This document shows, in pieces, positions 581 through 21,944 of a stretch of DNA of 64,000 nucleotides. The DNA is taken from assembly GCA_902546765.1 (NCBI GenBank), contig CACCLG010000004.1, positions 1-64,000 of the forward strand. Direction: 5' to 3'. The notes below the pieces were generated by a model. That model was not told the DNA's origin and ran no database searches. It saw nothing but the letters and a program-made list of their open reading frames with translations. The position numbers and the translations under genes are program-made. Source of the DNA: an uncultured Pelagibacteraceae bacterium (GTDB lineage Bacteria; Pseudomonadota; Alphaproteobacteria; Pelagibacterales; Pelagibacteraceae). Each line of letters starts with the position of its first letter. The stretch's first letter is position 1.

Positions 581-1405
581 ATGATTATTGAAAAGGTTAA
601 CAAATTTTTCGGTGATAATCATGCCGTTAAAAACGTTTCTTTTGAGGTTAACAAACCTCAAATGATAGGAATCATAGGTAGATCTGGGGCTGGTAAATCA
701 ACATTACTAAGAATTATAAATCGACTTACCGACGCAACAGATGGGTCGATTGAAATTGAAGGTCAAAATATTCTAGATTTAAAAAGTAAGGAAAAGAGAT
801 CATGGCAAAGAAACTGTGCAATGATTTTTCAACAATTTAATTTAGTCCCACGATTAGATGTTCTAACAAATGTAATATTAGGCAGATTAAATTATCAGGG
901 CTCATTTAGAGCATCTTTAAAAATGTTTTCTCGAGATGAAAGAGCTGATGCTCTGATTTTACTCAATAACTTAGGTATGGCTAACACTGCCCTTCAAAGA
1001 GCTGAAACGTTATCTGGAGGTCAACAGCAACGTGTAGCTATATGTAGAGCTTTGATGCAAAATCCTAAAATGATTTTAGCAGATGAACCAATTGCATCTT
1101 TAGATCCAATGAATGCAAGAATGGTAATGGAATCATTAAGAAAAATTCATGACGAAAAAAATTTAACAGTTATTTCAAATCTTCATACACTTGATACAGC
1201 AAAAACTTATTGTGATCGAATTATTGGAATGAAAGATGGTGAAATAGTCTTTGATGATTTGCCTGAAAAATTATCACATAAACTTGCAAGAGAAATTTAT
1301 GGTGCAGAGGCTGATGAAGCTTTTGAGCCACAAGTAACATCTACAGAGCTTAAAACAAAAAATAAATTAAATGGAGATGTTGAGAAAGAATTTGCAACTG
1401 CATGA
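581..1405 (+). CDS. phnC: phosphonate ABC transporter, ATP-binding protein
   Basis: This is the cytoplasmic ATPase that powers phosphonate import with PhnD and the two PhnE permeases. The Walker A motif GRSGAGKST is at residues ~33-41. The Q-loop 'FQQFNLVPR', the signature LSGGQQQRV, the Walker B 'MILADEP' and a switch histidine in 'SNLHTLD' are all intact. At 274 aa it is a normal length for PhnC. '[15 protein letters not shown]'-type sequence after the Q-loop is typical of PhnC rather than PstB or amino-acid ATPases. It leads a same-strand cluster with phnD 60 bp downstream. The ATG at 581 has only a distant purine stretch (AGAGGG), so the start is less certain than the family. Confidence 0.93.
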
Positions 1406-1465: not shown

Positions 1466-2416
1466 ATGTTTAATAAACTAACAAGAGTTATTGCACTTTT
1501 GGCTATGGTGTTTTTTTCAACTCAAGCTAATGCAGTAACTTACACAGGTCCAAAAATGGACTTAAGTAAATACCAACCAGAATTTAGAGTTGGTTTTTTA
1601 GGTGACGAAGCAGCTCAAGATATTATAGCTAGAAATGAATGTTTCATGCCGTATATCGAAGCCGCTTATGGTGTACCAGCTAAATTTTTTACTTTTAAAG
1701 ACTACGCTGGAACAATGGAGTCGATGCTAGGTGGTAATCTAGATTACACTTGGTTCGGTTCTTCAGGATATGCGGGTATGTATTTAAAAGATCCAACTGC
1801 AGTAGTACCAGTACTAACAAGAATGCAGCCAACTGGTGATATGGGTTACTACTCTGTTGCAGTAGCAACTAAATCATCTGGAATTAAATCAATGGAAGAC
1901 CTTAAAGGTAAATCCTTTGGTTGGGCTGACCCTAACTCTACATCAGGTTTTTTAATTCCGTCAATTGAATTAAAGGCTATGGGTATGGATCCAGATACAT
2001 ATTTTTCAAAAACACAGTTTTCTGGAGGACATGAAAACAATGTATTAGCGGTAATGAATGGTGATGTTGATGCTGGTGTAACATGGGTATCTGGTGTTGG
2101 TAGCTGGGAAGAAGGATATTCGTCAGGGAATTTAAGAAAAATGGTTGATAAAGGGATTTTAAATATGGACGACATTGTTCAAATTTGGTCTTCAAAATTA
2201 ATTCCTAATGGTCCAATTGTGATGCCTACTTTTTTACCTGTTAGAGCACACCAAGTAATGATTGGTTTAAAGCAATGGATACACGAGAACGATCCAAAAT
2301 GTAGCGAAAACGTTGCAAACGGGATTGTAAAAAAATGGGTTCCGGTGGATCATTCTTTTTACGAGTCAGTTGTAGCTGCAAGAAAAGCTAAAATTGAAGC
2401 GCAAAAAAATAATTAA
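1466..2416 (+). CDS. phnD: phosphonate ABC transporter, substrate-binding protein
   Basis: This is the periplasmic binding protein of the phosphonate importer, 316 aa. The N-terminal signal peptide ends at about 'STQANA'. The mature part has PhnD-family features: 'RVGFLGDEAAQDIIARNE' at the start, 'DYTWFGSSGY' and 'ADPNSTSGFLIPS' forming the phosphonate pocket, and 'FSGGHENNVLAVMNGDVDAG'. A strong ribosome binding site (AAAGGAGATAATT) precedes the ATG. A perfect 11-bp hairpin follows the stop codon, which probably raises phnD expression relative to the permeases. Which phosphonates it binds cannot be read from the sequence. Confidence 0.93.
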   Translation: MFNKLTRVIALLAMVFFSTQANAVTYTGPKMDLSKYQPEFRVGFLGDEAAQDIIARNECFMPYIEAAYGVPAKFFTFKDYAGTMESMLGGNLDYTWFGSSGYAGMYLKDPTAVVPVLTRMQPTGDMGYYSVAVATKSSGIKSMEDLKGKSFGWADPNSTSGFLIPSIELKAMGMDPDTYFSKTQFSGGHENNVLAVMNGDVDAGVTWVSGVGSWEEGYSSGNLRKMVDKGILNMDDIVQIWSSKLIPNGPIVMPTFLPVRAHQVMIGLKQWIHENDPKCSENVANGIVKKWVPVDHSFYESVVAARKAKIEAQKNN

Positions 2417-2480: not shown

Positions 2481-3335
2481 ATGGCAAAAGCCTTACCTGC
2501 CAACCTAGAACAAATTGAAGTTAATTTAAAAAAATTAACAAACCAGAGAACTAGGTCCTCGCTACTTGGAATTGCAATTCTAATATTAATTTTTTTTGGT
2601 GGTACCTTGGTATCGTTAGAAGCAAATGCAGGGTCTTTTGGAAGAGGTATAGCTAATTTTTTTAACTACCCTAGAGATTTATTTGTAGACACTTTTGAGA
2701 TGGGATGGAAATATTGGCCAAGAGTTATTAAGTATATTCCTGAATTAATTATTACTTTAAATATTGCTTTATTTTCAACTTCTATAGGTTTTATTTTAGC
2801 AATTATATTTGCAATTTTTTCAAGTAGGAACCTAATTAGAAACAAAAGAGTTATTCAATTTACAAAATTTTTAATGGATGTGACAAGATCATTTCCAACA
2901 TTAATAATAGCAATGGTGTTTTTATATCTAATGGGTAAATCATCTTTACCAGCTGTAATTGCTATAACAATACATACTGCTGGAGCACTTGGTAAATTAT
3001 TTACAGAGGCTATAGAAAATTGTGATGGAAAACCTATTGAAGGTTTAAGTTCTGTTGGTGCAACTTGGACACAGAAGATAAGATTTTCAGTTCTTCCCCA
3101 GGTACTACCTTTGTTTTTAAGTTATGGAATATTGAGGTTAGAAATTAATGTTAGAGAATCTACAATATTAGGTTTTGTTGGTGCAGGTGGAATTGGAGAA
3201 ATGTTAGCGGCTCTAATTCAGTGGAATTATGGAGCTGATGTTTTAGCGTGTATGTTCTTACTGGTTGGTACGATAATTGCATTAGATTATTTGTCTGCAT
3301 ATTGGAGACATAAATTAATTGGAGCAAATCAATGA
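2481..3335 (+). CDS. phnE: phosphonate ABC transporter, permease PhnE
   Basis: This is an inner-membrane permease of 284 aa. It has an N-terminal membrane helix (~28-46) and then a binding-protein-dependent transport domain. The EAA-type loop 'EAIENCDGKPIEGLSSVGAT', for docking PhnC, is visible, followed by 'RESTILGFVGAGGIGEML', which is highly characteristic of PhnE. It is translationally coupled to the next permease by an ATGA overlap. It is expected to pair with PhnE2 as a heterodimer. Confidence 0.92.
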   Translation: MAKALPANLEQIEVNLKKLTNQRTRSSLLGIAILILIFFGGTLVSLEANAGSFGRGIANFFNYPRDLFVDTFEMGWKYWPRVIKYIPELIITLNIALFSTSIGFILAIIFAIFSSRNLIRNKRVIQFTKFLMDVTRSFPTLIIAMVFLYLMGKSSLPAVIAITIHTAGALGKLFTEAIENCDGKPIEGLSSVGATWTQKIRFSVLPQVLPLFLSYGILRLEINVRESTILGFVGAGGIGEMLAALIQWNYGADVLACMFLLVGTIIALDYLSAYWRHKLIGANQ

Positions 3336-4732
3336 GTTCTAGTTTAGCTATTCAAAGAGAAAATATTCGTAAATTATTTCCTGACACATTTAAACAAGCC
3401 AGAAAGAGTAGATTAAGAGGCCAAATAATTTTTTTTCTCGTCTTAGTATATTTAATAGTAGGTTTTTTTACTTTAGATGTTGTTGATATCCCAAAAAAAT
3501 GGAAACCACAAAATGCTGCTATGTTTGTCTTAGACACATATGCACACAAAGATCATGTAACAATGAAATGGGAAAATCATGAGGATATTAAAATAGCTTT
3601 TGAAGGAAATTATAGAAGTATTTATGGAAGAGATAATCTTGATAAATCAATTCCAGATTGGTTTTACAAAAATTCTGATAATGTTGGCAATGTAGTTGAG
3701 TTTAATAATAAAGGTAAGGCAATATTATACAAAGATAAAGTCGAGATTGTAAATTTTCCAAAATATGAGAGAGATTTTACCATAAAATTAAATTCTAATG
3801 GTAAACCTTACCTTGTAGGTTCAGAGGATTTGGTCATAGAAGATTTAAAAGGTTTTAGAATCACAGAAAATAGAGTTGAATTTAGACCAACTTTGTATGA
3901 GAGAATTCAAGTATATCCAAAAAAAGTTGAAATTCATCGTTACAGTATCGGATGGAAATATTTTTGGTTTGATTTCTCAAGTCCGTTAGAACCATATAGC
4001 TTTTTCGAAGCATTAGGTTTGACTTTTTCTAAAGAAAGAGTTGTTCCTGAAATGTCTAATTTAAAACTTTTCTTAACAGAGATTAAGGATAATGAAGCAT
4101 TTATGCACGGTAGAGTTTGGTGGGCAATGCTCGAAACAATAGTTATGGCTGTACTTGGGACAATGTTTGCTACGGTAATGGCTCTGCCCTTGTCATTCCT
4201 TGCTGCATACAACGTTACACCTATTAAAGCTCTAAGATTTACGTTAAGAAGATTATTTGATACTTTAAGAGGAATAGACTTTTTAATTTGGAGTTTAATA
4301 TTTTTAAGAGCTTTTGGTCCAGGACCCTTCACTGGTATTTTTGCGATTGGTTTTACTGATACAGGTACTTTAGGTAAATTATATTCTGAAGCAATTGAAA
4401 ATACTGAGAAGAAACAACAAGAAGGAGTTCAATCTACAGGGGCTAGCAAATTTCTACAACATAGATTTGGTATAATTCCTCAAATACTTCCAATTTTTGT
4501 ATCTCAATCCTTATACTATTTAGAGTCAAATACTAGAGGAGCCGTAATAATAGGTGCAATGGGCGCAGGAGGAATTGGTTTACAATTTTTAGGTGCACTA
4601 GGTACTGGAAATGATTTTGAAAATGTCGCCTACATGGCAATATTAGTTTTGGCTGTAGTAATATTTATGGATAGATTATCTGCTTGGCTTAGAAGAATAT
4701 TAATTGGATCAGATCAATTAATTGTAAGGTAA
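3332..4732 (+). CDS. phnE: phosphonate ABC transporter, long permease PhnE2
   Basis: This is the second PhnE permease, unusually long at 466 aa. A membrane helix at ~31-49 is followed by about 215 hydrophilic residues (~50-265) that are probably extracytoplasmic. A standard permease domain follows from ~268, with the EAA loop 'EAIENTEKKQQEGVQSTGAS' and 'RGAVIIGAMGAGGIG'. Ordinary PhnE proteins are about 260-290 aa, so the insertion nearly doubles the protein. It overlaps phnE1 by 4 bp and ends the operon. The insert matches no domain I recognise. It may contact PhnD or the envelope, by analogy with the large insert in the PstA of this window. Confidence 0.88.
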   Translation: MSSSLAIQRENIRKLFPDTFKQARKSRLRGQIIFFLVLVYLIVGFFTLDVVDIPKKWKPQNAAMFVLDTYAHKDHVTMKWENHEDIKIAFEGNYRSIYGRDNLDKSIPDWFYKNSDNVGNVVEFNNKGKAILYKDKVEIVNFPKYERDFTIKLNSNGKPYLVGSEDLVIEDLKGFRITENRVEFRPTLYERIQVYPKKVEIHRYSIGWKYFWFDFSSPLEPYSFFEALGLTFSKERVVPEMSNLKLFLTEIKDNEAFMHGRVWWAMLETIVMAVLGTMFATVMALPLSFLAAYNVTPIKALRFTLRRLFDTLRGIDFLIWSLIFLRAFGPGPFTGIFAIGFTDTGTLGKLYSEAIENTEKKQQEGVQSTGASKFLQHRFGIIPQILPIFVSQSLYYLESNTRGAVIIGAMGAGGIGLQFLGALGTGNDFENVAYMAILVLAVVIFMDRLSAWLRRILIGSDQLIVR

Positions 4733-4799: not shown

Positions 4800-5228
4800 T
4801 CAATCTTTCCAGAATTTCCACCAAGGTTTTTCTTCCTTTGTTATCTCATTATTGTCAACAACAACTTTAGTTATAGATGGATCCTCTCCATCTACTAATC
4901 CTGCTCTAGCAGTTGTTTTAGCGTCTTCTAATTTTAGTTTTGCCTCAAAAACTCTGTTTTCATTACACAATTTCATGCCCTCTTTCATTAATGCTTCTGC
5001 CTCAGATGCTTTTTCGGGACTAGATCTTGAAATATCATTTTTAACAGTGGCTCTTAACATAAGTACGCCAGGGTCTTCACAATTCCCTATTTCATTTTTA
5101 AATGTATCCTCAGTATTTTGTGAATAACTACTGCCGGCTTGTTGCTCTGTTATTTTAGCATGATTGTCAGCTTGAGTAATAGAAATTGTGGATAAAGTTA
5201 ATATAAATGAGATTAGGATTTTATTCAT
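4800..5228 (-). CDS. small secreted protein of unknown function
   Basis: It encodes 142 aa with a clear signal peptide ending near 'ITQADNHA'. The mature part has three Cys (in 'IGNCEDPG' and 'MKLCNEN'-type contexts), a predicted helical middle ('RSSPEKASEAEALMKEG') and a Trp/Lys-rich tail 'KPWWKFWKD'. I do not recognise a family. It is convergent with phnE2 and divergent from the MFS gene. Its upstream region carries a PhoB-box-like repeat with the same geometry as that of the PhnZ-like gene, so phosphate control is plausible. The ATG at 5228 has no obvious ribosome binding site, consistent with a near-leaderless transcript. Confidence 0.72.
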   Translation of the reverse strand: MNKILISFILTLSTISITQADNHAKITEQQAGSSYSQNTEDTFKNEIGNCEDPGVLMLRATVKNDISRSSPEKASEAEALMKEGMKLCNENRVFEAKLKLEDAKTTARAGLVDGEDPSITKVVVDNNEITKEEKPWWKFWKD

Positions 5229-5239
5229 AATAATCTATT

Positions 5240-5268
5240 AACTTACTTTTGTTAAAAAAATGTTAAAG
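5240..5268 (-). promoter_or_regulatory. PhoB-box-like direct repeat upstream of the small secreted protein
   Basis: Read on the minus strand it is CTTTAAC-ATTT-TTTTAAC-AAAA, i.e. two 7-mers at 11-bp spacing. After 10 nt comes TAATAG as a -10-like hexamer, then 6 nt to the ATG. The geometry is identical to the site before the PhnZ-like gene. Confidence 0.5.
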
Positions 5269-5282
5269 AAATAAAAAAATTT

Positions 5283-6455
5283 GTGAAATATTTGTCTGCA
5301 TTTTTAATAGGTATATCAGTTACCTTTTGTTACAGCAGTTGTATGTACCTGTTCTCAGCGTTGTTGCTAACTTGGGAAAACGAACTAGGTATTTCAAGAA
5401 ACAACTTAACTTTTATTTATTCCCTAGGCTTAGTTGTGCATAGTTTACTTTTACCTTTTCTAGGTAAGATTGTAGATAGAAATCTAAGTTTTCCAATGAT
5501 GTGGACCAGTCCTATACTGTTAGGACTAAGTGTAATTTATCTTTCATCAGTAGATACATATGGTGGATTTTTACTTGCTTGGATACTTGTCAGTGCAACC
5601 TCGGGTGGCTGTCTTTATACGATGCTTTTTAGTGTCATTACTATTAATTTAAAATCAAAGGCCAAAACATCTATTGCAATAATTACTTTGTTTGCTGGAT
5701 TTGCAAGCACATACACATTTCCTACTGCTACTTATTTAACAGAACAATATGACTGGAGGTTTACTGTATTTATTTTTGGAATATTAAATATATTGATTAG
5801 TTCACCAGCTAATTATTTTGGTTTCAAAAATATAATTATAAAAGAATTTAAAAAAATTGAAAAGAAAACAGATCAAAATTCAAAGCTTAAAATAATACTT
5901 AAAGATTATAGATTTTGGTTATTTAGTTTTTCATTGTTTGTTATTGGATTTAATATTGGTGCTATTACAACTCATGTAATTCCAATGTTGCAGGAAAAAG
6001 GGATGAGTCTATCCCAAGCTGTATTGACAGCATCTCTGTTTGGACCAGGACAAGTAATAGGTAGAATTTTAGTTATGATATATGGAGGTGATAAGTCAAA
6101 TTTAAAATTATTTGTAATTTGTTTTTACTCGATGGTAATTGGAATGATATTTTTATACTTTATAAATATTAATCATTACTTAGCATTTTTATTTGTTTTA
6201 TTTAATAGTTCAGCATATGGCAGTATGGCTATTTTAAAACCTTTGGTTCAAAATGATACTTTTGGCCAAAAAAACTTTGGCAATATTCATGGTATTTTAG
6301 CTTTACAATATATGATTGGTAGTATTGCTGGTCCATGGATAGGTTCCTTGATATGGAATGTAGGGGGGTATGATTTGTTAATATTAGTATTTTTTGTTTT
6401 AGCAATATTTGGCAACTCGACAGCAATTTTTCTAAACAAAAAAAAATTTATTTAA
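5283..6455 (+). CDS. MFS transporter
   Basis: This is a 390-aa integral membrane protein with about twelve hydrophobic segments and a central charged loop ('KEFKKIEKKTDQNSKLK') separating two six-helix halves, as in the major facilitator superfamily. The start is GTG. It resembles the oxalate/formate-antiporter or monocarboxylate-like MFS branch. No substrate can be assigned from sequence. It is tail-to-tail with the PhnZ-like oxygenase (8-bp overlap) and divergent from the small secreted protein. A role in importing an organophosphonate or exporting its product is only an inference from context. Confidence 0.82.
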   Translation: MKYLSAFLIGISVTFCYSSCMYLFSALLLTWENELGISRNNLTFIYSLGLVVHSLLLPFLGKIVDRNLSFPMMWTSPILLGLSVIYLSSVDTYGGFLLAWILVSATSGGCLYTMLFSVITINLKSKAKTSIAIITLFAGFASTYTFPTATYLTEQYDWRFTVFIFGILNILISSPANYFGFKNIIIKEFKKIEKKTDQNSKLKIILKDYRFWLFSFSLFVIGFNIGAITTHVIPMLQEKGMSLSQAVLTASLFGPGQVIGRILVMIYGGDKSNLKLFVICFYSMVIGMIFLYFININHYLAFLFVLFNSSAYGSMAILKPLVQNDTFGQKNFGNIHGILALQYMIGSIAGPWIGSLIWNVGGYDLLILVFFVLAIFGNSTAIFLNKKKFI

Positions 6456-6999
6456 AACTGCTTTCCACATGTTTATAAAAAAAATTTATATTTGGAATTT
6501 CTAAATTTTCAACTTTAGCAAGATCATCATATTTCCTTAGTCTAACTGCATCTTGCATAAAAGGTTGTTTAATAAATTCGTTTGCCTCTTCTTCAGAAAA
6601 ACTACCACCTTGAACATCCAAACTTCTTTTTGAGGCAATAGATAGAGCCTCATAATATCCTTTCTCATAATAAACTAAATATCTTTTAGCTGGTACATGC
6701 CCTTTAATTAGTCTTGTAACATCTTCTGGAAAAAATTTAGAAAGAAAAAAGGATCCTGAATTCTCATGCTTTTTATCTACTCCTTTTTTGATGGCTTCTT
6801 TATCATTATTAATTAAGTGACCAATATCATGGAATAGAGCTGCAGTTATAAAAAAATTGTTTTCATTATTTTTTTTTGCCAATAATGCACATTGAATTGC
6901 ATGTTCTAGTTGTGAAACTTTTTCATTTCCATATTGTTTGTCTGATCCAATTTCTTCTATAATTTTAAATAAAACGGTTATATTTGATTTAATATCCAC
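6448..6999 (-). CDS. phnZ: PhnZ-like HD-domain mixed-valent diiron oxygenase
   Basis: This 183-aa HD-domain protein closely follows PhnZ, the enzyme that oxidatively cleaves the C-P bond of 2-amino-1-hydroxyethylphosphonate. Residues matching the PhnZ active site appear at nearly the same numbers: Tyr23, Glu26, His33 ('QLEHAIQCA'), His57-Asp58 and His61 ('FHDIGH'), His78, His101 and Lys105 ('GHVPAKRYLV'), and Asp158 or Asp159. The Tyr/Glu pair separates PhnZ-type enzymes from ordinary HD phosphohydrolases. TmpB and PhnZ1 are relatives with other 1-hydroxyphosphonate substrates, so the substrate is open. No 2OG/Fe hydroxylase (PhnY, TmpA or PhnY*) is in the window. The GTG start lies 22 nt from a PhoB-box-like repeat. 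Confidence 0.83.
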   Translation of the reverse strand: MDIKSNITVLFKIIEEIGSDKQYGNEKVSQLEHAIQCALLAKKNNENNFFITAALFHDIGHLINNDKEAIKKGVDKKHENSGSFFLSKFFPEDVTRLIKGHVPAKRYLVYYEKGYYEALSIASKRSLDVQGGSFSEEEANEFIKQPFMQDAVRLRKYDDLAKVENLEIPNINFFYKHVESSFK

Positions 7000-7010
7000 A
7001 ATGTTACTTT

Positions 7011-7050
7011 AAATTAAGAATGTTTCAGTTTTGTTACAATTTAGATTTAG
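7011..7050 (-). promoter_or_regulatory. PhoB-box-like direct repeats upstream of the PhnZ-like gene
   Basis: On the minus strand the repeats read CTAAATC-TAAA-TTGTAAC-AAAA-CTGAAAC-ATTC-TTAATTT, 7-mers at 11-bp intervals. TTGTAAC-AAAA-CTGAAAC is very close to the pstS site. Then 10 nt, the -10-like TAAAGT, 6 nt and the GTG start follow, which predicts a leaderless mRNA. The site also lies within the divergent promoter region of the ArsC-like gene. Confidence 0.6.
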
Positions 7051-7096: not shown

Positions 7097-7546
7097 ATGA
7101 AAAAACTTTTATTTGTTTGTACCGGCAATTCTCATAGAAGTATATTGGCTGAAAGTGTAGTTAACAAATATCATAAAGATAAATTTATTGGCTACAGTGC
7201 AGGTAGCAAACCATCTGGAATAATTAATAAATATGTCATTAAATATCTTAATGAAAATAATTTTGATACAAAAAATCTATCTTCTAAAAACTTTAATAAA
7301 TTTTTAGATGAAAAAACAATATTTGACCAGGTATTTACCGTATGCAACAATGCCAGTGATGAAGTTTGTCCAGTCTGGCCATCTCCTGAAAAAATAGTTC
7401 ATTGGGACATTGAGGATCCTGTTCATATCATTAATGAGTTAGAAAATAGTGATAAACCAAATAAAGAAGAGCTGATTTCAACAGAAATACATAAAACTTA
7501 TTCCAATTTAGAAACCAGAATAAATGATTGGATTAAAAATTATTAG
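7097..7546 (+). CDS. arsC: ArsC-type LMW-phosphatase-fold protein (arsenate reductase, copy 1)
   Basis: This is a 149-aa protein with the low-molecular-weight phosphatase P-loop C-X5-R ('FVCTGNSHRS', Cys8-Arg14). A second redox pair is visible in 'VCNNASDEVCPVWP'. That Cys pair is diagnostic of thioredoxin-coupled arsenate reductases, which reduce As(V) to As(III) through a three-cysteine relay. It is clearly paralogous to the second copy at 21.2-21.7 kb, differing in the P-loop (SHR against SAR). It is divergent from the PhnZ-like gene and may share phosphate control. Phosphatase activity is an alternative, but the relay cysteines favour the reductase. Confidence 0.8.
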   Translation: MKKLLFVCTGNSHRSILAESVVNKYHKDKFIGYSAGSKPSGIINKYVIKYLNENNFDTKNLSSKNFNKFLDEKTIFDQVFTVCNNASDEVCPVWPSPEKIVHWDIEDPVHIINELENSDKPNKEELISTEIHKTYSNLETRINDWIKNY

Positions 7547-7624
7547 CTTAAAGACTCATCAATTTTACTGTCAAACTAGAACCACAACTAGAACTTTTGG
7601 AGATGTTTCAAGGTTTTGTAGTAA

Positions 7625-7693
7625 ATGAATGAAGATAATCGGCGTAAACTCTGGAAAATTATTCAGGAAGCTGGCGATTATTTGCGGGATTAG
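7625..7693 (+). other. 22-codon ORF of atypical composition in an intergenic gap
   Basis: ATG to TAG encodes MNEDNRRKLWKIIQEAGDYL plus two residues. The local GC is clearly higher than in the surrounding DNA (CGG, CGT, CTC and GGC codons). It looks like the start or a fragment of a real gene rather than random AT-rich sequence, but it is too short to name and has no convincing ribosome binding site. Confidence 0.3.
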
Positions 7694-7765
7694 AGGGACA
7701 CATTATTCTACACTAACCTACATTAAACTAAAGTATTTATGCGGATACTAAAAAGTTAGCTTAAA

Positions 7766-7858
7766 ATAAATCGAGATGATTGTTTAGAATTTGCTAAAAA
7801 ATATAGTTGGGAAGAAACAGCAAAAATTTTCTTTAAAAATATTTCACCTAATAACTAA
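7766..7858 (+). pseudogene. remnant of a glycosyltransferase C-terminus
   Basis: In one frame the sequence reads 'CLEFAKKYSWEETAKIFFKN' before TAA. This closely resembles the C-terminal helix of group 1 (GT4) glycosyltransferases ('..FA.KYSWE.TA..'). An in-frame TAG lies just upstream (7754-7756) and no start or catalytic part remains. The rest of the 346-bp gap from 7547 to 7892 holds only the short ORF above. This is most simply the scar of a deletion or insertion event. Confidence 0.55.
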
Positions 7859-7892
7859 AGACAATATTAGTTACATTTGTTAAAACATATCC

Positions 7893-9754: not shown

Positions 9755-9783
9755 TTTTAACAAAACTGTAACAATTCCGTAAT
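9755..9783 (+). promoter_or_regulatory. PhoB box upstream of pstS
   Basis: TTTTAAC-AAAA-CTGTAAC-AATT-CCGTAAT forms three 7-mers with 4-bp spacers. This matches the Pho-box architecture (CTGTCAT direct repeats at 11 bp). It lies 66 bp before the preferred pstS start, leaving room for a -10 near 9794-9800 and an untranslated leader. Confidence 0.68.
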
Positions 9784-20119: not shown

Positions 20120-20587
20120 ATAAAATAAAAACATACCGATATGAGAAGCATTATTAAATTTGCCATTCTTAACTAATTTAATTATTTGTTGATCTGAAAC
20201 TAAGTGTATTTTTATTCCTTTTTCAGGCTTTGAAATTTTAATAAGATTATTACAAAAAAAACCAGTAATTTTAGTGGTGAGTCGACCTGGCTCAGAATAA
20301 AACGAGGTAATTTTTCTCAATTTATTTCTTGATTTATATCCCGTTTCTTCAATTAATTCTTTTTTAGCAGATATTAAGGCTGTTTCATGTTTTTCAATGA
20401 TACCAGATGGAAACTCAAAATTAATTTGATTTATAGGAATTTTTTTTTGTGAAACCAAAATATACTTGTTTTTAATTTTAGGTATTACAATTGAAAGATT
20501 TGGAGTTTTAAAAAAATGATAAAATTCATTTTTTTTAAATTTTTTATTAATTAATTTAATATTGTTTGTTAGTCTTAAATTTTTCAA
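20099..20587 (-). CDS. Nudix hydrolase, ADP-ribose pyrophosphatase-like
   Basis: The Nudix box is visible as 'GIIEKHETALISAKKELIEE' followed by TGY. It matches GX5EX7REUXEEXGU with Lys in place of the usual Arg. An 'EFPSG' lead-in and 'SFYSEPGRLTTKI' resemble ADP-ribose pyrophosphatases. The track ORF (to 20758) runs 58 codons into the aquaporin gene in another frame. I prefer a TTG start at 20587, which overlaps the aquaporin stop as TTGA, giving 162 aa. It is the last gene of the arsC-aquaporin unit. The substrate is not determinable. Confidence 0.75.
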   Translation of the reverse strand: MKNLRLTNNIKLINKKFKKNEFYHFFKTPNLSIVIPKIKNKYILVSQKKIPINQINFEFPSGIIEKHETALISAKKELIEETGYKSRNKLRKITSFYSEPGRLTTKITGFFCNNLIKISKPEKGIKIHLVSDQQIIKLVKNGKFNNASHIGMFLFYKKKYAR

Positions 20588-21243
20588 TTTTTTTCTAAGA
20601 ATAATTTTTTTGCAATATAAACAGCAATTACCATACCAATTAGTTCTGCAACTATATAAAAAGGAGTGTTTAAATAACTTATACCAGTAAAGGACTCCGT
20701 GAATGTTCTTGCTATTGCAACAGCAGGATTTGCAAAAGAAGTTGAAGAGGTAAACCAATAACCAGCTGTAATATATAACCCAACAGATGCAGCTACAGTA
20801 ATTTTACCTGACTTCATGGATCCAAAAATAATGATTATTAGTCCTAATGTTGCAACAATTTCTGATACAAAAATATAGATACCATCTCTTGATTTTGTCG
20901 ATAATTCAAAAATCTGATGTTCAAAAAAGAAATTAGCTAATGCTACACCTAGTAAACATCCAAGTATCTGAGCGGAAATATAAAAGGGTAGAAGTTTTTT
21001 TTTTAACTTTCCTGTAATTGTCATAGCAATACTTACAAATGGATTGAAATGAGCCCCGGATACATCAGCAAATACTGTTATTAGCACAAACAAACCAGCT
21101 CCAGTTGCTATAGTATTTGCAATTAGCATTACCGCTGTATCATTGGTCATATTTTCTGCCATTAAACCTGATCCAACTATGATCATTACGAGAAAGCAAC
21201 TTCCAATAAATTCTGAAAGAAAATATTTATTTTTATTTTTCAT
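20584..21243 (-). CDS. aquaporin/aquaglyceroporin family channel (AqpS-like)
   Basis: This is a 219-aa membrane protein with six helices and the two half-helix motifs of the MIP family: 'HFNPFVS' (NPF at 67-69 in place of NPA) and 'FANPAVAIAR' (NPA at 182-184, selectivity-filter Arg189). It overlaps the upstream arsC by 11 bp. In rhizobia an aquaglyceroporin AqpS replaces ArsB and lets arsenite made by ArsC leave the cell. The operon context supports that role here. Water or other small solutes are alternatives. Confidence 0.85.
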   Translation of the reverse strand: MKNKNKYFLSEFIGSCFLVMIIVGSGLMAENMTNDTAVMLIANTIATGAGLFVLITVFADVSGAHFNPFVSIAMTITGKLKKKLLPFYISAQILGCLLGVALANFFFEHQIFELSTKSRDGIYIFVSEIVATLGLIIIIFGSMKSGKITVAASVGLYITAGYWFTSSTSFANPAVAIARTFTESFTGISYLNTPFYIVAELIGMVIAVYIAKKLFLEKN

Positions 21244-21664
21244 CTAGCCAATCTTTAATTTTATTACTTATAACATTGAAAGTGTTTCTAATGATTATTT
21301 GCTTTTCTTCATCATTTGCATTTTGAAGTTTTTTTACTGGATCTTCAATATCCCAGTGTATAATTTGATTTTTATCAGGCCAAATAGGACATACCTCATT
21401 ATTTGCGTTGTTGCATACTGTTATTACATGATCCATTTTTATTTCTTTATTGATAAATTCTTCAAAGTTTTTAGAACTATAATTAGTTAAATCATAACTT
21501 TTATTTTTCTCTAAAAAATTTTTTACATCTTCATTGATTTTTCCAGATGGATTACTACCAGCACTAAAAGCATTAAATTTATTTGAGTATTCATTATTAA
21601 TAATACTCTCAGCAATAATGCTTCTCGCTGAATTTCCTGTGCATACAAATAAAATATTTTTCAT
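21233..21664 (-). CDS. arsC: arsenate reductase, LMW-phosphatase/thioredoxin-coupled type (copy 2)
   Basis: It encodes 143 aa. The P-loop C-X5-R is in 'FVCTGNSARS' (Cys8) and the relay cysteines in 'VCNNANNEVCPIWP'. 'HWDIEDPV' is also shared with copy 1. It reduces arsenate, which enters with phosphate through Pst, to arsenite. It is flanked by a small membrane protein upstream (one-base junction) and the aquaporin downstream, giving a reductase-plus-efflux unit. No ArsR repressor is visible nearby. Confidence 0.87.
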   Translation of the reverse strand: MKNILFVCTGNSARSIIAESIINNEYSNKFNAFSAGSNPSGKINEDVKNFLEKNKSYDLTNYSSKNFEEFINKEIKMDHVITVCNNANNEVCPIWPDKNQIIHWDIEDPVKKLQNANDEEKQIIIRNTFNVISNKIKDWLDEK

Positions 21665-21885: not shown

Positions 21886-21944
21886 ATAACTCCTTTCGTA
21901 TTACTTATGACACTTATGTTAAAGATTTGTTAAATATGTTAACT

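Follow-up and report, generated by a model that had tools for sequence, protein, structure and literature searches.

A PhnZ/TmpB-type HD-domain protein at one edge of a SAR11 C-P lyase island: a putative oxygenase for imported 1-hydroxyphosphonates

The window considered here, i.e. the whole stretch of 64,000 nucleotides that was analysed, is the start of a contig from a 0.98-Mb SAR11/Pelagibacter genome that is 65% complete. It contains a gene for an HD-domain protein, hereafter HD, surrounded by genes for phosphonate import, a transporter of the MFS type and an arsenate reductase-like protein (Table 1). The MFS and HD genes are convergent and overlap by 8 bp; the same overlap is found in 41 of 43 close relatives, and in the remaining two the MFS open reading frame is shortened. 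Both the convergent MFS neighbour and the adjacent phosphonate importer had been described in an earlier note on this DNA, and both descriptions hold, the former from the coordinates and the overlap and the latter from the NCBIfam assignments of phnCDEE. On the opposite side, the divergent gene arsC* is followed in the window by a sensor kinase and then by pst genes. The approximately 350 bases between arsC* and the sensor kinase (7547-7892) have no recognisable gene; in most relatives an aquaporin gene is located there, and the gap is possibly a remnant, or the junction to the pst operon. Across SAR11 the HD gene is under purifying selection, with a median dN/dS of 0.09.

Table 1. Features of the HD locus, in positions of the window
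Feature	Position	Strand	Remarks
phnF regulator, truncated by the contig start	3..473	+	in relatives, phnF leads into phnGHIJKLN-DUF1045-phnM
phnC, phosphonate importer ATPase	581..1405	+	NCBIfam
phnD, phosphonate-binding protein	1466..2416	+	NCBIfam
phnE, importer permease	2481..3335	+	NCBIfam
phnE2 (second phnE), long importer permease	3332..4732	+	NCBIfam
142-aa predicted secreted protein, no known family	4800..5228	-	restricted to cassette genomes; between phnE2 and MFS
Pho-box-like direct repeat, gap from MFS to 142-aa gene	5250..5267		motif scan
MFS transporter gene	5283..6455	+	390 aa
HD gene, PhnZ/TmpB-type HD-domain diiron oxygenase (predicted)	6448..6999	-	183 aa, GTG start
Pho-box-like direct repeat, shared HD/arsC* promoter	7021..7038		in HD direction, TGTAACAAAACTGAAACA
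arsC*, LMW-type arsenate reductase, distinct subfamily (predicted)	7097..7546	+	divergent from the HD gene
Pho-box-like repeat preceding pstS (9832)	9756..9773		positive control for the motif

A sequence search of the PDB matched the HD protein to PhnZ (E 5e-29) and TmpB (E 5e-26), and to nothing else convincingly. An AlphaFold (AF2) model built from 52 sequences (pLDDT 94.1) gave the same answer in a structure search, with TM values of 0.87-0.91 and E values of 1e-11 to 1e-12 for PhnZ and TmpB, beyond which nothing was retrieved below E 0.1, phosphohydrolases included. The diiron ligands (His33, His57-Asp58, His78, His101 and Asp158), the Tyr23/Glu26 pair of the YxxE loop, and His61, Lys105, Ser123 and Arg155 are identical in 44 of 44 sequences of the clade, which bears out the claim of the earlier note that the pair and all the iron ligands are present. 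In the alignment with PhnZ, Tyr23, Glu26, His33, His57-Asp58, His61 and His78 correspond to Y24, E27, H34, H58-D59, H62 and H80, and His101, Lys105, Ser123, Arg155 and Asp158 to H104, K108, S126, R158 and D161, respectively; by the roles known for PhnZ, we take His61 to be catalytic and Lys105, Ser123 and Arg155 to be phosphonate-binding. The YxxE loop is a feature of PhnZ and TmpB, where the binding of the substrate frees the second iron (PMC8177086). Sequence, modelled fold and loop thus support the assignment of HD to the PhnZ/TmpB type rather than to the phosphohydrolases, as had been proposed from the sequence.

Among the named NCBIfam families, TIGR03276 Phn-HD ranks first for the HD protein with 201.2 bits, below its cut-off of 214.6; some of the HD relatives linked to C-P lyase genes also fall just under this cut-off (212.5 and 213.8 bits). 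PhnZ1 (NF052439) is the second-best named family with 159.5 bits, and TmpB (NF049941) gives 138.4 bits, both below cut-offs of 300. In a tree of 93 proteins, whose deep order and backbone, joining the SAR11 HD clade to the other C-P lyase-linked HD proteins, are not settled, this clade is monophyletic (100/99) and stands apart from PhnZ and TmpB, so that a grouping with either of them was discarded. The placement in such a tree had been recommended as a check, and it returned a separate clade with no grouping among phosphohydrolases, so that the phylogenetic refutation named in the earlier note did not materialise. No viral copies of the HD gene were found in IMG/VR.

All 43 close relatives of HD (88-99% identical) originate from single-cell genomes or MAGs of Pelagibacter. 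On every contig of sufficient length, the HD gene adjoins the MFS gene, the 142-aa gene and phnEEDC, and its other side is occupied by arsC*, usually with the aquaporin beyond it. Among 201 Pelagibacter genomes, HD (at least 92% identity), MFS, arsC* and the 142-aa gene are each present in the same 8, here called cassette genomes; PhnJ occurs in 5 of the 201, all of which belong to these 8. In the three cassette genomes devoid of PhnJ the contig stops before the phnJ position: inside phnF in the present genome (G000), ahead of phnD in G097, and in G121 about 350 bases before the expected phnJ start; PhnJ is thus missing from the present genome because its contig ends in phnF. The full order of the island, derived from G054, G131, G151 and G162, with the part to the left of HD from G054 and G151, is ppk-ppx-nudix-phnX-(glpD-ugp in some)-aquaporin-arsC*-HD-MFS-142aa-phnEEDC-phnF-phnGHIJKLN-DUF1045-phnM. 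No hydroxylase is contained in the island in three of these four genomes; in G131, and in this genome only, one unrelated PhyH gene directly follows phnM (L229:14018-14902, minus strand), and its product is 71-74% identical to PhyH proteins encoded elsewhere in two other cassette genomes.

Because this order is conserved and PhnJ is confined to genomes with the HD cassette, the HD locus is one edge of a SAR11 C-P lyase island. The setting with phosphonate catabolism genes that belongs to TIGR03276 is found here as well, with phnCDEE in the window and the C-P lyase genes in the relatives. As a whole, the earlier note had correctly recognised the enzyme type and the lack of a hydroxylase in the window, and it had missed the membership in the island and the arsC* neighbour. 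The island also carries phnX, coding for a phosphonoacetaldehyde hydrolase that scores above the NCBIfam cut-off (L227:5541-6335 and L014:6011-6805), and phnW was not recognised in those parts of the island that were read, so that a second C-P cleaving enzyme may be deprived of its usual activating partner as well.

The C-P lyase island includes the MFS gene. ArsK is the nearest named model for the MFS product, whose score of 127.9 bits is far under the cut-off of 400. The best plasmid relative of this carrier (31%; L233:7980-9188) is located in a C-P lyase operon of plasmid pMAQU01 from Marinobacter VT8, in the gap between phnL and phnN, and more distant relatives are found in ars operons or in mixed surroundings. 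Identification of the carrier as ArsK was rejected, since the score is under the cut-off and the closer relatives lie in C-P lyase or mixed contexts; the idea of a common MFS type beside HD in Hymenobacter, Variovorax and Aquicella was also abandoned, as the MFS proteins of these bacteria are not related to that of the window at E 1e-3. The Marinobacter and window proteins could represent a phosphonate-linked MFS subgroup. In G459, a small alphaproteobacterial genome, the MFS relative that is closest in identity (35%) is encoded two genes away from a protein (L236:1-498) sharing 31% identity with the 142-aa secreted protein, a hint that the pair is kept together outside SAR11 as well.

The product of arsC* has the CTGNSHR motif (a CX5R loop) together with C8, C83 and C91, so that the cysteines of the LMW-type arsenate reductases are present; its best family match, arsC_pI258_fam, reaches 68 bits, under the cut-off of 174.3. 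An ordinary arsC is found in 91 further genomes without this type of HD. The present genome has two arsC genes, about 50% identical, and the ordinary SAR11 arsenate-resistance pair lies in the window as well, at 20584-21664 on the minus strand (arsC 21233-21664, aquaporin 20584-21243).

HD and arsC* share a divergent promoter in 42 of 42 relatives having both genes. In the gap between them a stretch of 20 bases, TTGTAACAAAACTGAAACAT, is nearly invariant (one position is C or T), with variable flanks. The repeat that it contains, when read in the direction of HD, is a 7-4-7 direct repeat with 16 of 18 bases equal to that upstream of pstS; a one-base variant is present at the HD box in 24 of the 43 relatives. 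The pattern TGTTWMA-N4-TGTTWMA has 4 exact matches in the 64 kb, with 0.1 expected, an enrichment that is partly post hoc because the pattern was written after the sites had been seen; three of these matches belong to the promoters of HD/arsC*, MFS and pstS, and the fourth, at 21917-21934, is located upstream of the ordinary arsC at a distance of about 250 bases. SAR11 ArsC is induced 2.3-fold under P starvation (PMC6426599). Given the way in which the pattern was chosen, the repeats support Pho control without proving it, and the HD/arsC* promoter is probably under such control.

No PhyH or TauD hydroxylase is encoded in the 64-kb window, in agreement with the earlier note, the matches of this genome being located on other contigs. 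They comprise L001, which is clearly a PhyH protein, and three proteins of the TauD/BBOX type; the genome-wide search that had been suggested thus did recover candidates, none of which is PhnY- or TmpA-like or tied to HD. PhyH proteins are encoded in all 8 cassette genomes, one or more in each, and many uncharacterised PhyH and TauD proteins exist in SAR11 genomes; the identity of the PhyH proteins of the 8 cassette genomes with HD-linked PhyH proteins is at most 35% (on a short segment) or 29%. L001 was dismissed as a partner, as its orthologs are distributed across the genus regardless of the cassette (4 of 8 cassette genomes, and dozens without it) and its identity with HD-linked PhyH is 24%. 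Another PhyH protein of 262-263 aa, present in 6 of 8 cassette genomes, is encoded between MTA-phosphorylase-like and mtnA-like genes or by amino-acid transporter genes, neighbours that were named from their sequences by eye, and was therefore not considered a phosphonate gene. The three TauD/BBOX proteins were excluded as TmpA, having 24-31% identity with TmpA-like enzymes, which share 68% among themselves. Since the genomes are incomplete, at 65% for the present one and no more than 90% for the other cassette genomes, and a hydroxylase could sit in a gap, this search is evidence against a dedicated partner and not proof of its absence.

The same arrangement is encountered outside SAR11. In a set of 66 HD relatives from other bacteria, each with roughly 5-14 kb of context, an adjacent hydroxylase was found for none of the 16 HD genes accompanied by C-P lyase genes, versus 15 of the 50 others (Fisher p 0.008, in a test that takes no account of how the loci are related). 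Many of the C-P lyase-linked HD genes directly follow phnM; among annotated examples, the Nostoc gene lies inside the C-P lyase operon, before phnJ, and that of Variovorax follows phnE. Thus, the hydroxylase-free arrangement is recurrent and not anomalous, and belongs to a family that NCBI marks as function-hypothetical. The missing hydroxylase to which the earlier note had drawn attention is the usual condition in relatives with C-P lyase genes. The nearest non-SAR11 relative of HD (50%; L146:5547-9282) has no hydroxylase either; its neighbours encode a PhnW-like aminotransferase, a calcineurin-like phosphoesterase, a DSP-type phosphatase and a PiT-like permease.

We propose, with a probability of about 60%, that HD functions within the C-P lyase island as an oxygenase under Pho control and cleaves imported 1-hydroxyphosphonates. 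The proposal builds on the fold, the complete active site, the clade, the membership in the island, the co-inheritance and the promoter motif in common with pstS; from these we infer the Pho control, the oxygenase activity and the uptake of a substrate that is already hydroxylated. Upon exhaustion of phosphate, PhoB would probably activate the common HD/arsC* promoter, and phosphonates would be imported by PhnCDEE. Those already hydroxylated at the carbon adjacent to phosphorus would be bound at the diiron site by Lys105, Ser123 and Arg155; on their binding, Tyr23 would leave the iron and Glu26 would come in, after which O2 would bind, and cleavage of the C-P bond at what would be a mixed-valent diiron site would give phosphate and a carboxylic acid. 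The remaining phosphonates would be left to the C-P lyase, HD acting as an accessory enzyme. A precedent for the use of a preformed substrate is the lyase PbfA, which uses preformed (R)-HAEP, and PhnZ has some substrate tolerance and high specificity for (R)-1-hydroxyphosphonates (PMC10574752).

The earlier note had left the choice between a partner encoded elsewhere and direct uptake of a 1-hydroxyphosphonate, and direct uptake is the better supported of the two. That HD is instead the second half of a hydroxylase pair, with its 2OG/Fe partner elsewhere in the genome, is conceivable but on balance unlikely: all the characterised HD relatives work with a partner (PMC8177086, PMC10574752), potential partners exist in the PhyH proteins of every cassette genome and in the three TauD proteins of this one, and in the other SAR11 HD clade a TauD gene adjoins HD; however, none of the PhyH and TauD proteins found resembles PhnY or TmpA, L001 orthologs occur in only half of the cassette genomes and in many cassette-free ones, and in other bacteria the C-P lyase-linked HD genes have no adjacent hydroxylase. 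In many alphaproteobacteria HD closes a C-P lyase operon, and in Nostoc it lies within one. This could also be explained by an enzyme that removes or recovers a hydroxylated compound connected with the C-P lyase pathway, be it an intermediate, a by-product or an inhibitor, rather than acting on an imported nutrient; we hold this to be quite improbable, as some HD relatives are accompanied by phnX and an FAD oxidoreductase instead of C-P lyase, and none of the C-P lyase intermediates known to us has a 1-hydroxyphosphonate group.

The neighbourhood of arsC* raises the further question of whether the substrates are organoarsenicals, with HD, arsC*, the ArsK-like MFS and the aquaporin forming an arsenic module in which HD cleaves C-As bonds, possibly as the arsenic demethylase of SAR11. 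SAR11 strain HTCC7211 demethylates DMA by unknown enzymes, and its phnD is induced by DMA (PMC6426599); together with the divergent promoter that HD invariably shares with arsC* and with ArsK as the nearest named model of the carrier, this would place HD in a SAR11 arsenic demethylation route under one phosphate-starvation promoter. Such a role is nevertheless very improbable. PhnJ tracks the cassette exactly, whereas the ordinary arsC is widespread in genomes lacking this HD, and this tie of the cassette to PhnJ and not to arsC in general makes phosphonates much likelier than organoarsenicals; moreover, the carrier is far under the ArsK cut-off with closer relatives outside ars operons, arsenate resistance near Pho genes is expected anyway, and methylarsenicals lack the 1-hydroxyl. 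Finally, an ordinary HD phosphohydrolase is hardly credible: the general HD domain (Pfam HD) is indeed present in the protein, but sequence, fold and YxxE loop all lead to PhnZ and TmpB, the hydrolases being far more distant.

A second PhnZ-like HD clade (L056-L075, L162-L165) is found in about 40 of the 201 Pelagibacter genomes, with roughly 35-46% identity to the present one; G131 is the sole genome with both. In most of the copies examined, the HD gene of the second clade is flanked by genes for a TauD-family dioxygenase and a choline dehydrogenase-like protein, and a small thioesterase-like gene is often present as well; TauD and HD probably form a hydroxylase/oxygenase pair acting on a quaternary-amine-like phosphonate. 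A PhnY neighbour is absent from both SAR11 HD clades. In a global survey, about 45% of marine phnZ came from SAR11 (Pelagibacterales) and phnZ was read as a marker of the 2-AEP pathway; in the Mediterranean, phnX and C-P lyase genes rise jointly (PMC9381506), which fits an island carrying both. Since neither SAR11 clade has a PhnY neighbour, the reading of phnZ as a sign of 2-AEP catabolism needs re-examination: the HD gene of the SAR11 island should not be counted by default as 2-AEP catabolism in marine "phnZ" figures, and it should be reconsidered whether the oxidative breakdown of 2-AEP is, as claimed, the most widespread marine phosphonate strategy. The HD oxygenases associated with C-P lyase may have a different mode, the use of ready-made 1-hydroxyphosphonates.

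Among known systems, TIGR03276 Phn-HD, described as a "phosphonate degradation HD-domain oxygenase" of hypothetical function, is the best full-length family match of the HD protein, and it, too, is found in other bacteria together with C-P lyase genes in the absence of a hydroxylase; in contrast, the SAR11 HD lies outside the phnG-M transcription unit and has its own divergent promoter beside arsC*. With PhnZ (HF130_AEPn_1; PDB 4MLM, 4MLN, 4N6W, 4N71), HD shares the fold, the diiron ligands, the Y24/E27 loop and the phosphonate-binding Lys/Ser/Arg, but the two are 33-35% identical, HD has no PhnY partner and it occupies a separate branch of the tree. Similarly, fold, ligands and YxxE loop are common to HD and TmpB (6NPA), from which HD differs in its identity of 31-32%, in the lack of a TmpA partner and in its separate branch. 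PhnZ1, the hydroxymethylphosphonate dioxygenase of Gimesia maris and Prochlorococcus, has the oligotrophic marine setting in common with HD, which however lacks a PhnY* partner and falls far under the 300-bit cut-off of that family. As for arsC*, it resembles the LMWPc_ArsC of the SAR11 arsenate-resistance pair with aquaporin (PMC6426599) in that it adjoins an aquaporin gene on the same strand in most cassette genomes, and it differs from the ordinary SAR11 ArsC in being a distinct subfamily, about 50% identical.
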